Origin: a virus
Reading direction: 5' to 3' (one strand)
DNA length: 47,037 bases
Virus record (IMG/VR): IMGVR_UViG_3300044970_002708
Span: 1 to 47,037 of that record
Below the pieces are notes generated by a model. That model had not been told where the DNA came from and ran no database searches. It worked only from the letters and a program-made list of their open reading frames with translations. Positions 2,671 to 31,334 of the stretch are shown piece by piece. Both the position numbers and the translations under genes were made by a program. Position 1 is the first letter of the stretch, and the number at the start of each line of letters is the position of its first letter.

Positions 2671-3027
2671 ATGTTTTGCAGCCAGCACGAGCCCCTTGCC
2701 TTGCTAGTTGAATTAAGACCAAAACTTGCCAAGAAACGATTCAGAGAAAGTATATATCAAGCCTGGAACCATGAATGTGCTTATTGCGAAGAACAAGCCA
2801 CAAGCTTAGATCACATTGTCCCACGTTTTAAATCTGGGTGCTCCAATAGAAACAACCTGGTTCCAGCATGCAAGAAATGTAACGCAAACAAAGCATCTTC
2901 TGAAATGGAGACCTGGTACCGCCAGCAGTCTTTTTTTACGGAAGAAAAACTAAGTAGAATAAAAGCTTGGATGGAACCAGACGGTTTCAATCTAATTGAT
3001 TTACAGCTACGCAAAGAAGCGTCATGA
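2671..3027 (+). CDS. HNH endonuclease
   Basis: This is a 118-residue HNH nuclease of the small stand-alone type. It has the zinc-binding CxxC of 'CAYCEEQ', the HNH core 'LDHIVPRFKSG', the Asn in 'NRNNLVPAC' and a second CxxC in 'CKKCNANK'. The fold cuts double-stranded DNA with a His-metal active site. ATG 2671 is preferred over TTG 2662. The stop overlaps the ATG of the next structural gene (ATGA at 3024-3027), so it rides in the late operon between two virion genes, as free-standing homing endonucleases do. The preceding AT-rich gap (2587-2670) has no other gene. Confidence 0.9.
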   Translation: MFCSQHEPLALLVELRPKLAKKRFRESIYQAWNHECAYCEEQATSLDHIVPRFKSGCSNRNNLVPACKKCNANKASSEMETWYRQQSFFTEEKLSRIKAWMEPDGFNLIDLQLRKEAS

Positions 3028-5234
3028 TTCGTTTCACTACTGTTAACGGCTTACTGAAACCTGTTCTTCCTAAGGATGCAACAAGTGATGAAGTCACAGT
3101 GGCAGATACGATTGCACAACGCCTGAACGGAATTCAAGGTCCGGAAAACTACAAGATGTTAATGGAGTCTCTCGATCAGACTCTTCAAAAAAACAATAGT
3201 AACGCTCAAGATTATATTGACGACGAGACCATTGAATCGGTTGAGAATTTTTATCAGAAAGCAACAGGGGCGCAGGTTTGGGATTCTTCCAAGCAAGGTG
3301 TCCCGCTTGATAAGTTTGATGCAAAATTTTACTCCAAGCAAGTTCCAGAGGAAGTCAAAGCCTGGAACAGTGCTTCTTCCGCAGTTTCATTTGGCGGCAG
3401 GAAAATTGCCGATATCGACATCACGAAAAAATACGCAGATCTAGATTCTTTTCTGCATGCAAACTATACGTTTGTTGGCGCACCAAGTGGTCGGTTAGGT
3501 AAGCCACGCCCCCTGGAAACCTACAAAGAAACTTTAAGGGCACCTACCGACAGAGAACGTCAGATTTTGCGTCAAACAATAATAGGGAAATCAACCGACA
3601 AACCTGAATCTCTTGCTGAATTAGCAACTCAAGATTACATTGACAAACAAAGCGAGCAAGTTTTTGGCGCTCTGTCTGCTGATGTCATGAAGCAGACATT
3701 AGGCGAATATTCGAAAGCGCTTAAGAAACAAGGAATGTCGGACATGCTTCAGGGCATGGGCATGCCCAGTGTCAACAGCTTCAAGCAAGACATTAAAAAC
3801 TCAATCTTGGGTGACAGCAGCGCTGGTGGGTACATGGGTTTTGGGGGCGATTCCAAGCTTGGCAAAAGTCTATCCGAAAGCTTAGATCGTAGCCTAGGCA
3901 TAGGTTCATCCGTTCAATACAATTGGCAGCAATGGTTTGACGAAACACTTGCCAAGCGATATCAAGAGATGTCGCAAGTTACAAGCCCAGAGGATGCCGC
4001 TAAAACCTATCAAGTTGAAAAGCAATTTGCCAATTCTTTTGTTCAAGATTACTTGAAGCCTCGCTTTGACACTTCAAAGTCAATTGCTGAATTTATTAGT
4101 TACATGGACGTTAAAGAAGATGAGCAAAACGTTCTGCAGACTCAGCTTGCTTCAAGTGCTTTAAAAGACTTTGCCAACAAACAAGCGCAGACTTTTATTA
4201 ATGAACTTGGAGCAAAAACAACACAAAAAGAATTCGACCCCAACTTTTACTGGAACCCTGAATTACTTTCTGGTACCGATGTACAAACTAAAAAAGATCT
4301 ATATGAACAACAGAAGCAAGGCGTGCAGAGTTCCTGGGACGCACGCAATAGTGATCAGGCTGTAAAAGATGGTAAAACCTGGAGTCAACTTGCTTATGAA
4401 TATGGTATTGATTTAGAAAATAAGAATGATTTTGCGCGTTTACATTACGCTGTAATCGGTAAAGATAAAAATTACGACCCCGTTGCAGATACCTATTCAA
4501 GGAATGACCTAGCTTCTTTTATCCAAGGTCCCTTGGCGGATGCGTTACAAAACCAAAAAACTTCTTTTGGTAATCCGGTTTTCCTTAGTTTTGTTTCAGC
4601 CGAACAAAAAGCCAAAGAGTTTGTTGATAAATTAGACGTTGCAAATTTACCAAGTGATCTCCAAGAGAAGTTAAAAGGTCTTGGTTACAATACAAGCACG
4701 GATCCGGCTGAAGAAATTAAAGGTGCATTGATGAGCATCTTAAGTACCGACCCAGCAATTGACATACGTGAACGCATTAAACAGTTAAACGAACAAAAGA
4801 TTAAACCAACGCAAGAACAGTTGGGATTTGGTTATATCCAAAGAGACACAGACGAGAAAGTTGAAGCGCCTGCTGGTGGCAGCGCACTGTTTAATATTTT
4901 TCAGAAGGCAGGTTATGGCGGAAGTGAGTCAGAGTTTTATACTGAGTTTTTTCCTGATGCCACCAAAGAAGACAAAAACTTAATGCCTTCAGATGTGGGC
5001 AAGGCTAGTTCAGTAAAAGGATTGCAAGGACTGATGGGATTCAGTTTGCCTGATCTTTCTGATCCTTTTGCTGCAATGGGATCAATTGATAAAATGCTTT
5101 CTGATGATACTATAAAAAAGAAAGAAACATATAAACCAACTCGCTCAAGTTATTTTGATTATTTTTCAGACGAAGAAGATGAAGGCGCTCCTTCCCTCTT
5201 CGGCAGCAGCGGACTTGGTTCACTATTTGGTTAA
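3024..5234 (+). CDS. large hypothetical virion protein, 736 aa
   Basis: This 736-residue protein is strongly helical, rich in Lys, Gln, Asp and Ser and largely hydrophilic. A short Gly-rich stretch lies at about residues 265-280 (SSAGGYMGFGGDS) and the C-terminus ends in an acidic 'DEEDEG' run followed by Gly/Ser/Leu/Phe repeats. No catalytic motif is visible. Length, helix content and place among late genes suit an internal virion or ejection protein, but it lacks the long hydrophobic segments of a tape-measure protein. The ATG overlaps the stop of the HNH gene, so translation is coupled. Function is inferred only. Confidence 0.75.
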   Translation: MIRFTTVNGLLKPVLPKDATSDEVTVADTIAQRLNGIQGPENYKMLMESLDQTLQKNNSNAQDYIDDETIESVENFYQKATGAQVWDSSKQGVPLDKFDAKFYSKQVPEEVKAWNSASSAVSFGGRKIADIDITKKYADLDSFLHANYTFVGAPSGRLGKPRPLETYKETLRAPTDRERQILRQTIIGKSTDKPESLAELATQDYIDKQSEQVFGALSADVMKQTLGEYSKALKKQGMSDMLQGMGMPSVNSFKQDIKNSILGDSSAGGYMGFGGDSKLGKSLSESLDRSLGIGSSVQYNWQQWFDETLAKRYQEMSQVTSPEDAAKTYQVEKQFANSFVQDYLKPRFDTSKSIAEFISYMDVKEDEQNVLQTQLASSALKDFANKQAQTFINELGAKTTQKEFDPNFYWNPELLSGTDVQTKKDLYEQQKQGVQSSWDARNSDQAVKDGKTWSQLAYEYGIDLENKNDFARLHYAVIGKDKNYDPVADTYSRNDLASFIQGPLADALQNQKTSFGNPVFLSFVSAEQKAKEFVDKLDVANLPSDLQEKLKGLGYNTSTDPAEEIKGALMSILSTDPAIDIRERIKQLNEQKIKPTQEQLGFGYIQRDTDEKVEAPAGGSALFNIFQKAGYGGSESEFYTEFFPDATKEDKNLMPSDVGKASSVKGLQGLMGFSLPDLSDPFAAMGSIDKMLSDDTIKKKETYKPTRSSYFDYFSDEEDEGAPSLFGSSGLGSLFG

Positions 5235-5767: not shown

Positions 5768-5893
5768 ATGGCAAAACCCAAATCAAGTGCAACTGTAAAA
5801 ATTGAGTCTCGCCCGAAAAAAACGAGACAAGGTCAGGGTCAACATTCATTGCCTAGCCATGGCCGTAAAAAGATGCGCGGCCAAGGTAAGTAA
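5768..5893 (+). CDS. 41-aa basic peptide
   Basis: ATG 5768 opens a 41-residue, very basic peptide (KPKSSATVKIESRPKKTRQG, then GRKKMRGQGK at the end). A peptide of this shape, with an 'E.RPKKTRQG' core and a 'RGQGK' tail, recurs in cyanophage genomes as far as I recall. It could coat or condense DNA or RNA. A larger frame starting at 5696 would overlap the preceding gene and is less likely. The function is unknown. Confidence 0.7.
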   Translation: MAKPKSSATVKIESRPKKTRQGQGQHSLPSHGRKKMRGQGK

Positions 5894-5907
5894 AAATTAT
5901 GTATATT

Positions 5908-5929
5908 AGGGGTAATAATTGTTACCCCT
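5908..5929 (+). promoter_or_regulatory. 22-base inverted repeat abutting the lysozyme start
   Basis: AGGGGTAA-TAATTG-TTACCCCT is a perfect 8-bp inverted repeat with a six-base loop that ends one base before the lysozyme ATG. The left arm holds the only Shine-Dalgarno-like AGGGG, which would be paired in the hairpin. A -10-like TATATT lies just upstream (5902-5907). It could be an operator or a translational control hairpin. Confidence 0.6.
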
Positions 5930-6589
5930 ATGTCGGATCTTTCGCGTGCCGTTAACCTAATTCGCAAATACGAAGGGTTTAACGAGAAAGCATACCCAGG
6001 TCCGTGCACTGGTGCAGAACCGTATACCATTGGGTTTGGGACTCAGTTCTATCCCGATGGTTCTCCCGTCAAACGTGGCCAGTGTTGCAGTCAAGAAAAA
6101 GCACTGGAGTATCTCTTCCACGAGCTATCCGTTATTGACACGCAACTTACAAAGTTAAATCTTGGACTTGATGACAGCATGCGCCAGGCGTTGCTTTCAT
6201 TTATTCATTCCATTGGCTGGGAATCTTTTCTGTACGGTCGAGTAATTGATTGTATTGAACACGAAGATTTTGCCGCTGCCACAGAAGAAATGAGCCGTTG
6301 GGTCTTTGGTGAAGACCATCAAGTAATTGGTGGCTTGCTCCACAGGCGTCGTGAGGAGATTCGGCTTTTCCTTCATGAAGTCGACGCAAATCCTTGGTCC
6401 TCTACAGATGTATTACTTGCAGCGTTCAGGAATTACACGGCGGCTCCGCACCAAGTAAAGGCCATCCGGTCCCTGGAACAGAACCTCAGTCCGTACGTAA
6501 TTGCCCAGTTTGCTAACGAATTTCAAATTGATGACGATCCCTGGGACGATTACACCAATGATGGCGTCCCTTTAGAATTTAGTAGCTAG
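5930..6589 (+). CDS. endolysin, T4-type lysozyme (GH24) with C-terminal extension
   Basis: This is a muramidase that would cleave the MurNAc-GlcNAc bond of the host wall at lysis. The catalytic region lies at about residues 8-150: Glu15 in 'KYEGF' and Thr33 in 'YTIGFGT' match the T4 lysozyme Glu/Thr positions, and 'GWESFLYGRVID' and 'HRRREEIRLF' match later GH24 helices. The position usually held by the catalytic Asp (in 'AYPD') is Gly here (AYPGPC), which is unusual. Residues about 150-219 form an extra acidic C-terminal region of unknown role. The gene follows an inverted repeat and sits next to the NblA-like gene. Confidence 0.88.
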   Translation: MSDLSRAVNLIRKYEGFNEKAYPGPCTGAEPYTIGFGTQFYPDGSPVKRGQCCSQEKALEYLFHELSVIDTQLTKLNLGLDDSMRQALLSFIHSIGWESFLYGRVIDCIEHEDFAAATEEMSRWVFGEDHQVIGGLLHRRREEIRLFLHEVDANPWSSTDVLLAAFRNYTAAPHQVKAIRSLEQNLSPYVIAQFANEFQIDDDPWDDYTNDGVPLEFSS

Positions 6590-29593: not shown

Positions 29594-29603
29594 GGTATTG
29601 CGC

Positions 29604-29609
29604 TATACT
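29604..29609 (+). promoter_or_regulatory. -10-like TATACT after the H1-like gene
   Basis: GCGCTATACTTTCAG lies 11 bases after the H1-like stop. No gene starts nearby, so it would transcribe the non-coding region, at least as far as the terminator at 29670. Confidence 0.35.
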
Positions 29610-29669
29610 TTCAGTGCTCAATACACACGCCTCGTCCCGTAGGTATTGGCGGTAAGTAATTAGTCCTAG

Positions 29670-29696
29670 TCCTGGCCTGAGCAACCAGGATTTTTT
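29670..29696 (+). terminator. rho-independent terminator
   Basis: TCCTGG-(9 bases)-CCAGGA is followed at once by TTTTTT on the plus strand. It should end transcripts from the small basic gene cluster and insulate the RNA region that follows. Confidence 0.85.
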
Positions 29697-29699
29697 GTG

Positions 29700-29705
29700 T
29701 ATAAT
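29700..29705 (+). promoter_or_regulatory. TATAAT promoter element of the non-coding RNA region
   Basis: A perfect TATAAT follows the terminator and precedes a long structured sequence. No clear -35 is seen at 17 bases upstream. Transcription would start near 29712. Confidence 0.5.
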
Positions 29706-29711
29706 AAAATC

Positions 29712-30009
29712 GATAGAGGTCAGGTCCCTGCTTGCACACTTGACCCATCTATCTTGCGGTAACCTTGCCGTCCCGCGTTCTTTGATCGCCCCAGGGAGAA
29801 GTAGGATCTAAGTCCTGGGTTTCCAGGCCGGAGGTTTGATCACCTTTGCCAGATTGATTCCCTGGTGCGCCCTCGACCCATTTGGCAAGCGCGACGAATC
29901 AGTAACACCCCTCATGCCTAGCTTGATAACGAGGACGGCTTTACACCGGGCGCACGGGCTTGCAGGCATCCTCACTTAGTTATCAATGATGCACAAACAG
30001 AGGGGTCAC
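29712..30009 (+). ncRNA. candidate large structured RNA, about 300 nt
   Basis: No convincing ORF covers 29594-30188. Between a terminator/promoter and two tRNA-like elements, the plus strand can form several nested helices: GATAGA+GGTCA (29712-29722) with TGACC+TCTATC (29741-29753), CCCAGG (29790-29795) with CCTGGG (29814-29819), and an outer ACCCCTC (29907-29913) with GAGGGGT (30000-30006) enclosing TGATAAC+GAGGA (29924-29935) with TCCTC+GTTATCA (29969-29985). TTGCCA (29846) pairs with TGGCAA (29883) while TGATTC (29855) pairs with GAATCA (29896), in an order that makes a pseudoknot. Large ornate phage RNAs such as GOLLD sit next to tRNAs, but I cannot match this one to a known consensus. 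Confidence 0.5.
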
Positions 30010-30081
30010 TCAACCGGTAGTCCAGTGGCAGGACACCCCGACAAGGGAGTCAGATAGCTGGTTCGATTCCAGCACGGTTGA
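30010..30081 (+). tRNA. tRNA-like element 1, Val(GAC)-like, anticodon arm contracted
   Basis: The ends pair as CAACCG / CGGTTG; the D-arm is GTCC-AGTGGCA-GGAC (30020-30034) and the T-arm is GCTGG-TTCGATT-CCAGC (30057-30073), all canonical. The anticodon region is not: at best a 3-bp stem CCC/GGG encloses six bases, CGACAA (30039-30044). It contains GAC (Val) but lacks U33 and the 7-base loop. No encoded CCA is present. It may be a degenerate tRNA or a tRNA mimic. Confidence 0.45.
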
Positions 30082-30083
30082 TT

Positions 30084-30159
30084 CATCTGGTCCGAGACAA
30101 TTGGATAGTACGGCTACTGCCGCTGCAGGGCGATGTAGGTTCGAATCCTACCCAGGTGC
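30084..30159 (+). tRNA. tRNA-like element 2, non-canonical centre
   Basis: Acceptor halves CATCTGG / CCAGGTG (one G-T pair) and the T-arm GTAGG-TTCGAAT-CCTAC are canonical, and a D-loop-like 'AATTGGATA' is visible. The centre (30106-30132) folds only into short alternative hairpins such as CGG-CTACTG-CCG, so no anticodon can be named. It starts two bases after element 1. A degenerate, unusual or mimic tRNA is possible. Confidence 0.4.
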
Positions 30160-30188
30160 TTTAGAGTGAGCAGACTCAAGAAAGTTAA

Positions 30189-30818
30189 ATGAGTTACCTC
30201 AATCACAACCTGCCTACGTTCACGTGCTACATTCGGAACGAATTCTTATACAACCACAAGCAAGGCCATGGTGATGTGACGTTGTGCGATGTACACTCAG
30301 TCGCTTCCCTGGAGAAGCACGTCCCTTTATTTGAAGTCTTCCTGGAGAACGGCGTCAACTGGACAAGGCGTCCCATACATGCTCTCTGCTGGAAGCCAGA
30401 TGCCCCTAAGCCTGAGTTGAATGAATGCATGTGGTGGGATTGTTTCTCTCCGTATATCGATGTGCAGGTTAGGTCACGCCTTTCAAACTTACGTGCACAG
30501 TTAATTAATTTTAAAGGAGAGAAGAAGGGAGGCATTTATATGTTTACTCTTGACTGGTCTTGGGAATCTAAATCAACTCTTAATACAAACTTCAGTGAAA
30601 CACCTGAGCATAAGTGTGCACACTTTTTCCGAATGGATGACGGTAATTTTTATGCGTATCCCAATAACCGAATTATTTGGTATGACGATGCGTGGCTCAA
30701 GAACCGCATCGAAAAGAATCCTGGGTACGAGATTGACTTGACTGAGTACAGCGTAGAGAACTCACGGATGATAGAAACGTCTGATCATTTTATATACGAA
30801 ACAACGTCTGCAGAATAG
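30189..30818 (+). CDS. conserved cyanophage hypothetical protein, 209 aa
   Basis: This 209-residue protein is rich in Trp, His, Cys and aromatic residues: 'YLNHNLPTFTCYIRNEFLYN', 'VHSVASLEKHVPLFEVFLEN', 'RPIHALCWKPDAP', 'MWWDCFSPYIDVQV' and 'YMFTLDWSWESKS'. I recall homologues in several cyanophages and marine phages, without a proven function. The His/Cys/Trp spread suggests a metal-binding or enzyme fold. It begins 29 bases after tRNA-like element 2. Confidence 0.75.
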   Translation: MSYLNHNLPTFTCYIRNEFLYNHKQGHGDVTLCDVHSVASLEKHVPLFEVFLENGVNWTRRPIHALCWKPDAPKPELNECMWWDCFSPYIDVQVRSRLSNLRAQLINFKGEKKGGIYMFTLDWSWESKSTLNTNFSETPEHKCAHFFRMDDGNFYAYPNNRIIWYDDAWLKNRIEKNPGYEIDLTEYSVENSRMIETSDHFIYETTSAE

Positions 30819-30848: not shown

Positions 30849-31334
30849 ATGGAATTGCGCAGGTGCTCTTCTTGTGGTTTTGAAAAACAACTAGAAAAAC
30901 ATTTTTACAAACAAGCAGAATCTAGAGCGCATAGATCAGGTGGTTACCTAAATCAGTGCAAATTTTGTGTATTAGAAAAAAATCGCATAACTCAAGCCAA
31001 GCCCAAAAGAAAAGAAAAAGTATGGGAAAATAAATTGCAATATCGTTATGGCATAACCAGGCAAGACTATGAGTCTTTACTGACAAAACAAAAAAATTGT
31101 TGTGCTATTTGCGGAACAACAAACCCTTCATCTAAAAGTAAAAAACATAAATATTTTTCGGTAGATCATTGCCATCAAACAGGAAAAGTAAGAGGTCTTT
31201 TATGCGCAACTTGTAATAGCGCTATAGGCCTCTTAGGTGATTGTCCAGAAACTATTTTAAAAGCTTCTGTTTATTTAAGTGGATCTCAAAGTGCTTTTAA
31301 CAAACCAAGCAGCTTTAAACGCTTGACCGACTAA
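30849..31334 (+). CDS. endonuclease VII-like HNH nuclease
   Basis: This 161-residue protein has an N-terminal CxxC pair ('CSSCGFEKQLEKHFYK' and 'CKFCVLEKN') followed by the T4 endonuclease VII (gp49) type core: 'YGITRQDYESLLTKQKNCCA', 'CGTTNP', 'FSVDHCHQTGKVRGLLCATC' and 'NSAIGLLGD'. Family enzymes cut branched DNA, but stand-alone copies also behave as homing endonucleases. AT-rich and Lys-rich composition differs from its neighbours. Its 3' end overlaps the convergent Dps-like gene by 60 bases. A TATACT box precedes it. Confidence 0.9.
   Translation: MELRRCSSCGFEKQLEKHFYKQAESRAHRSGGYLNQCKFCVLEKNRITQAKPKRKEKVWENKLQYRYGITRQDYESLLTKQKNCCAICGTTNPSSKSKKHKYFSVDHCHQTGKVRGLLCATCNSAIGLLGDCPETILKASVYLSGSQSAFNKPSSFKRLTD

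Follow-up and report, generated by a model that had tools for sequence, protein, structure and literature searches.

An abiF-type RNA without its toxin gene in a gene-free island of a virus related to cyanophage S-EIV1

What is encoded by a gene-free stretch of a viral genome that adjoins two tRNA-like elements? The question is raised by positions 29594-30188 (595 bases) of the window analyzed here, which is the whole 47,037-nucleotide record IMGVR_UViG_3300044970_002708 and is related to cyanophage S-EIV1. An earlier note proposed that this island may specify a large structured phage RNA resembling GOLLD. The answer reached below involves AbiF, a HEPN ribonuclease toxin regarded as an ancestor of Cas13, and abiF RNA, its RNA antitoxin in bacteria. 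The abiF RNA of C. difficile binds the AbiF toxin directly and neutralizes it both in cis and in trans (PMC12373285). According to a review that covers the PbAbiF complex (8VZ6), the RNase is inhibited by nucleotides located in a single-stranded bulge of its RNA (PMC12737573).

Results and Discussion

Borders and predicted transcription of the island

The island contains no open reading frame of at least 60 amino acids, in line with the gene-free stretch of the earlier note. Its 5' part contains the following elements.

29671..29696, + strand: terminator-like hairpin of the upstream genes, read from the sequence (5-bp stem, 9-nt loop, T6)
29700..29705, + strand: probable -10 element TATAAT (-10-like sequence with similar spacing in homologous loci)
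29712..29753, + strand: 5' hairpin F (covarying stem, 12 loci)

The hairpin just 5' of TATAAT had been called a strong terminator, which overstates a weak structure: its arms, CCTGG (29671-29675) and CCAGG (29685-29689), are followed by six T residues, and it was not listed by a strict terminator scan because its loop exceeds 8 nt. The TATAAT noted as a border was recovered at 29700-29705. In four homologous loci (L013, L018, L209, and L270), a -10-like sequence is present at a comparable distance 5' of GATAGAG, and a sequence similar to accaggattttttgtg precedes the same RNA. A search for a -35 element returned no sigma-70 match for this TATAAT. The RNA would start at about position 29711, just past TATAAT. 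Shortly 3' of the island, positions 30849-31334 (+ strand) encode a recombination endonuclease VII-type nuclease (PF02945).

The folding energy of the island did not differ significantly from background (z = -1.33); the case for an RNA rests on homologues. Eight viral contigs were retrieved with a 20-base word taken from the island, and degenerate words for three conserved blocks retrieved tens to more than 100. Their alignments split into modules that recur singly or in combination. The stem of hairpin F, present in the earlier note as a helix, is conserved and covaries (GGTCAGG/CTTGACC, GATTAGG/CCTAATC, GGCCAGG/CCTGGTC), and its apical part is swapped among homologues. A hairpin, GCGCGTTAGGCANATAGCCTAGAAGGCG, is inserted into it in L005, L166, L209, and L270; similar hairpins form the anticodon arms of elements located 3' of some abiF RNAs.

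Rfam searches of the island matched no family at gathering thresholds and tRNA alone in a lax search up to an E value of 10. GOLLD, HEARO, and the other families were thus not matched, and the RNA is about 300 to 450 nt long, so that the GOLLD-like assignment was abandoned. Examined for a tmRNA model match or a tag reading frame, the island gave just an aberrant tRNA in ARAGORN. The broader proposal, that a phage RNA of conserved structure adjoins the tRNA-like elements, was borne out by covariation in homologues. As judged from these alignments, the island is a predicted modular non-coding RNA composed of a chain of conserved structures, which would be transcribed as a single molecule from about 29711 to past 30160.

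Positions 29904 to 30010 correspond to an abiF-type RNA

The helix previously reported at 29907-30006 closes an abiF RNA as its outer stem. The layout of this RNA is as follows.

29904..30010, + strand: abiF-type antitoxin RNA (model R3, host/phage alignment, pair counts)
29908-29913 with 30000-30005, + strand: outer stem (CCCCTC with GAGGGG)
29915-29917 with 29991-29993, + strand: inner stem (TGC with GCA)
about 29918-29990, + strand: extended apical hairpin
29994-29999, + strand: bulge CAAACA
at the ends, + strand: flanks AACA and TCACT

All nine abiF consensus pairs form in the window, and the same pairs covary in relatives. Model R3, trained on five host and ten phage sequences with the exclusion of the window, S-EIV1, and other long forms, scored the window at 50.7 bits (E = 2.4e-12) and S-EIV1 at 47.1 bits. 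With filters off, R3 aligned the window partially (14.6 bits); the assignment is based on the default alignment, which agrees with the manual one. The equivalent block of relatives (block B) is named abiF RNA (RF03085) by Rfam, and its short-loop forms pass the threshold. The window copy scores below the RF03085 gathering score of 37, without an abiF match up to an E value of 10, probably because its apical hairpin is 62 nt longer; it is therefore a variant of RF03085 rather than a strict Rfam member. Seven host copies located beside AbiF genes likewise score below 37 (29 to 34 bits). The ends do not vary among 91 distinct phage copies, and the apical part ranges from a 44-nt form to the form of about 106 to 107 nt present in the window. 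Together, these results make the assignment of 29904-30010 to the abiF type almost certain.

The toxin is absent from the phages and present in hosts

The Abi_2 profile (PF07751) had no match in the window, nor in any of 30 phage records carrying at least one of the modules (27 plus three more). Complete isolates with an abiF RNA and without Abi_2 include S-EIV1, S-SZBM1, S-CREM1, S-SRM01, and mycobacteriophage Redno2. The authors describing S-CREM1 recorded an abiF sRNA without assigning a specific function to it (PMC9964418). In Redno2 (L362, 1501-1537), the solitary abiF RNA (Rfam, 47.5 bits) lies upstream of a tRNA-Gly, and similar stretches are present in 33 mycobacteriophage records. Mimicry may thus extend beyond cyanophages.

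Among 291 cyanobacteria, Abi_2 exceeded the cut-off in 15 and abiF RNA exceeded the threshold in three, in each case directly upstream of Abi_2. A second sample comprised 300 genomes of one small-genome cyanobacterial family (presumed from their genome size to be picocyanobacteria), of which 13 encode Abi_2; the system is thus rare there. Strong R3 matches (at least 68 bits) occurred at eight places in seven genomes of this family, and seven of the eight are located about 115 nt upstream of an Abi_2 match on the same strand. The host AbiF finds a match in the solved structure 8vz6 and retains a HEPN-type RNxxxH motif. The flanks AACA and TCACT of the phage RNAs recur in five of the seven inspected host RNAs, and in four of those five the bulge is CAAACA, as in the window; the 3' flank differs in other cyanobacterial copies. 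Flank counts in the pattern-scanned phage set are biased, because the scan required GGGGTCRCT; the phage copies found by Rfam are fewer than those found by the pattern. Two host abiF RNAs, L358 1905-1957 (70.9 bits) and L359 1840-1883 (47 bits), have no detected Abi_2 match beside them; AbiF loci that decayed or RNAs that were captured are possible origins.

A tRNA-like element with an exchanged anticodon arm

Both tRNA-like elements indicated by the earlier note were recovered.

30011..30081, + strand: tRNA-like element 1 (84.5 bits against a dedicated model and 34.8 bits against tRNA)
30084..30159, + strand: tRNA-like element 2 (17.2 bits with RF00005, 18.7 bits with model R1; fold)

Element 1 has ordinary acceptor, D, and T arms (98 to 99% of cells paired), and its anticodon arm is replaced by a 4- to 5-bp hairpin with a GACAA loop (30040-30044) and a bulged A (30048). 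The 5-bp stem with a 7-nt anticodon loop, as expected of a tRNA, is lacking in element 1. RNAfold predicted the same structure as described here. In 25 diverse copies, 96.8% of cells are paired and covariation is 0.702 versus 0.202 for the comparison value; covariation is seen at four of the five pairs of the replacement arm, and its bulged A hardly varies. The loop is constant in this set because the search pattern demanded GACAA. A GNRA-like fold is suggested by the loop variants GCAA (L207), GCGAAA (L197), and AACAA (L018), which were obtained by other routes. Elements with an "NGATA" loop 3' of some abiF RNAs were considered as a second pentaloop class and dropped, being readable as short tRNA-Ile/Met.

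The GACAA element is present, unannotated, in six cyanophage isolates. Phage copies score 49 to 95 bits; among 291 cyanobacterial genomes the best score was 42.5 bits, with ordinary tRNAs as the top matches that were examined. The element is absent from the host AbiF loci and matched no Rfam family besides tRNA; it appears to be previously undescribed. In element 2, the D and anticodon arms are non-standard and a UCCGA-GACAA-UUGGA hairpin is present. A type related to it, with a D-arm region CGANNYAANNGGATAG...CGGC, recurs 3' of element 1 in several phages.

In about 76 of 101 phage copies, a tRNA or tRNA-like element starts within a few bases of the abiF end, with a spacing that is mostly at most 1 nt from the end of TCACT; in the window, element 1 starts at the base right after TCACT. 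The downstream elements vary (tRNA-Gly, -Leu, -Ala, or -Pro, a tRNA-like element, or none). RNase P cuts precursors at the 5' end of tRNAs, and the junction fits such a cut.

Domain A, a second conserved element

A further conserved structure precedes the abiF RNA.

29808..29900, + strand: RNA domain A, 93 nt (19-sequence covariation; model R2)
29814-29827, 29829-29848, 29849-29865, and 29866-29893, + strand: hairpins H1, H2, H3, and H4 of domain A
29856-29860 with 29896-29900, + strand: pseudoknot of domain A

Domain A consists of two hairpins and a pseudoknotted hairpin pair. In an alignment of 19 sequences, chosen for a similarity below about 95%, its 27 pairs in six helices are formed in 94.3% of cells versus 85.3% after shuffling. 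Sixty cells are double-changed versus 25 expected, and covariation is 0.356 versus 0.191 for shuffled alignments, the signal being lost when partners were slid. The TGATTC/GAATCA pseudoknot of the earlier note found support, with 96.8% of cells paired and both sides altered in three pairs; in-register variants of GATTC:GAATC include GGTCC:GGACC, GATCC:GGATC, AGTCC:GGACT, and AATCC:GGATT. Two other proposals did not: the TTGCCA/TGGCAA pairing is conserved in close relatives alone, and, in place of the helix at 29790-29819, homologues form hairpin H1. Model R2 scored the window, which is one of its training sequences, at 105.7 bits. A weak R2 match at 5892-5979 on the + strand (19.4 bits, E = 0.027) overlaps the start of the open reading frame 5930-6589 and is probably due to chance. 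H1 and H2 also occur without the rest of domain A, for example in S-PM2 (20.6 bits).

In linked loci, domain A stands 5' of the abiF RNA. The abiF 3' motif was found within 260 bases of domain A at 24 of 30 loci (about 0.03 expected by chance, as estimated from motif length), a fraction somewhat inflated because, although most loci came from words inside domain A, some came from the abiF and tRNA-like scans. A few loci end in a terminator-like sequence instead of abiF. A conserved block, GGGTGCAACAAGGAACGTTGCATTAAACGAAGGATCCCCTCRGCCRCATCGTAGA, for which no Rfam name was seen, recurs 3' of H1 and H2 of domain A or 3' of abiF RNA (L006, about 2976-3040; L004; L196; L182; L236; L052, 997-1053). 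Another block, GTTCACTACCAGAGTTTGCCGGTGTGCAGGTAGTG, recurs 3' of domain A (L002, L008, L026, and L040), sometimes between domain A and abiF.

Bacterial genome contigs gave apparent chance matches to domain A except for one contig (L318) in an actinobacterial MAG, which is probably of phage origin. R2 found no copy in the 300 host-family genomes, in a scan run without a positive control; the L005 copy had no match in a phage isolate collection, and domain A matched no Rfam family. Domain A thus appears previously undescribed. The notion of a new phage RNA therefore appears to apply to domain A and the GACAA element and falls for 29904-30010, a variant of a known RNA.

Proposed function and alternative explanations

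The comparison establishes the structures, the homology to abiF, the missing Abi_2, the existence of host AbiF genes with a similar RNA, and the tRNA junction. We consider it probable, from sequence comparison, that the island RNA acts as a solitary phage antitoxin that neutralizes host AbiF, since the phages possess the antitoxin RNA and no AbiF gene. The phage abiF RNA would bind the host ribonuclease as the host antitoxin does, and AbiF-mediated growth arrest would be averted once synthesis of the host antitoxin fails; RNA mimicry of an antitoxin would thus serve as counter-defense. Element 1 may be cut by RNase P and thereby define the 3' end of the RNA, a role in maturation that we slightly favor, and may perhaps also be a decoy for RNases attacking tRNA anticodon loops. 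Domain A would accompany phage abiF RNAs specifically on their 5' side, perhaps contributing stability or a second protein contact. Several observations weigh against AbiF neutralization: the window form, of about 107 nt, has a large apical extension, it escapes detection by Rfam and aligns partially in the unfiltered R3 search, and AbiF is present in only 13 of the 300 sampled hosts.

The phage might instead have formerly possessed an AbiF toxin-antitoxin module, of which the RNA would be a functionless leftover or hitchhiker. AbiF systems are indeed known from prophages (PMC12373285), and two host abiF RNAs (G354 contig 64 and G471) have no Abi_2 match beside them, but covariation in many phages, the preserved bulge and flanks, and the wide spread without the toxin indicate that selection appears to maintain the RNA and not the toxin, which makes this origin quite unlikely as a full account. 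Cis regulation, in which the RNA would govern readthrough into the tRNA-like elements and the open reading frame 30189-30818, is suggested by its location 5' of tRNAs and a gene and by precedent: a cis-regulatory role was proposed for the manA or wcaG RNAs of cyanophages, other RNAs of cyanophage tRNA clusters are annotated in this manner (PMC2864571; S-CREM1), and the C. difficile abiF RNA region also works via premature termination. However, the downstream elements vary between loci, and no terminator-like site was found between the RNA and the tRNA; we regard a leader function as unlikely. The near-constant tRNA junction and the tRNA-like element devoid of an anticodon loop could also reflect an RNA devoted to processing or stability of the phage tRNA cluster, made of spacers and RNase barriers, with a captured stable hairpin accounting for the likeness to abiF. 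Such a role leaves the identity of the bulge and flanks with the host antitoxin unexplained and is very unlikely.

If neutralization of AbiF by the phage RNA is correct, phages counter the AbiF family by standing, widespread mimicry of an antitoxin RNA, and part of the non-coding sequence of phage tRNA arrays gains a use. Known cases of RNA-based anti-defense are the Racrs and the rare escape mutants of phiTE. A more doubtful extension is that tRNA arrays form a shuffling cassette in which abiF mimics, domain A, and GACAA elements would each neutralize or decoy a separate RNase toxin of the host; domain A and the tRNA-like element would then resemble antitoxins whose toxins are yet to be found. 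Two conserved RNA elements are added in any case: domain A and a tRNA-like RNA with an exchanged anticodon arm, the latter not seen among 291 cyanobacterial genomes.

Comparison with known systems

Like GOLLD and ROOL, the window RNA is a structured phage RNA adjoining tRNAs, but it is smaller, differs in architecture, and does not match their Rfam models. Element 1 shares the acceptor, D, and T arms of tRNA (RF00005) and departs from it by its anticodon arm, where a hairpin of 4 to 5 bp bears the GACAA loop and the bulged A. The abiF RNA (RF03085, AbiFr, RCd22) and the window copy have in common a 6-bp outer stem, a 3-bp inner stem, a 3' single-stranded bulge, and GCC..GC.CAAA; the phage RNA differs by its longer apical hairpin (62 nt) and by the lack of an adjacent toxin gene, with domain A on its 5' side and a tRNA-like element on its 3' side in place of the AbiF gene. 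Racr RNA anti-CRISPRs are likewise solitary copies of a host defense RNA carried by phages (PMC10651486), whereas the window RNA would mimic a toxin-antitoxin RNA rather than a CRISPR repeat. In phiTE, a phage RNA also imitates an antitoxin, in that case ToxI of a type III system (PMC3475682); mimicry there is confined to rare mutants that escape ToxIN, whereas the type present in the window is standing and widespread and is proposed to act against AbiF.
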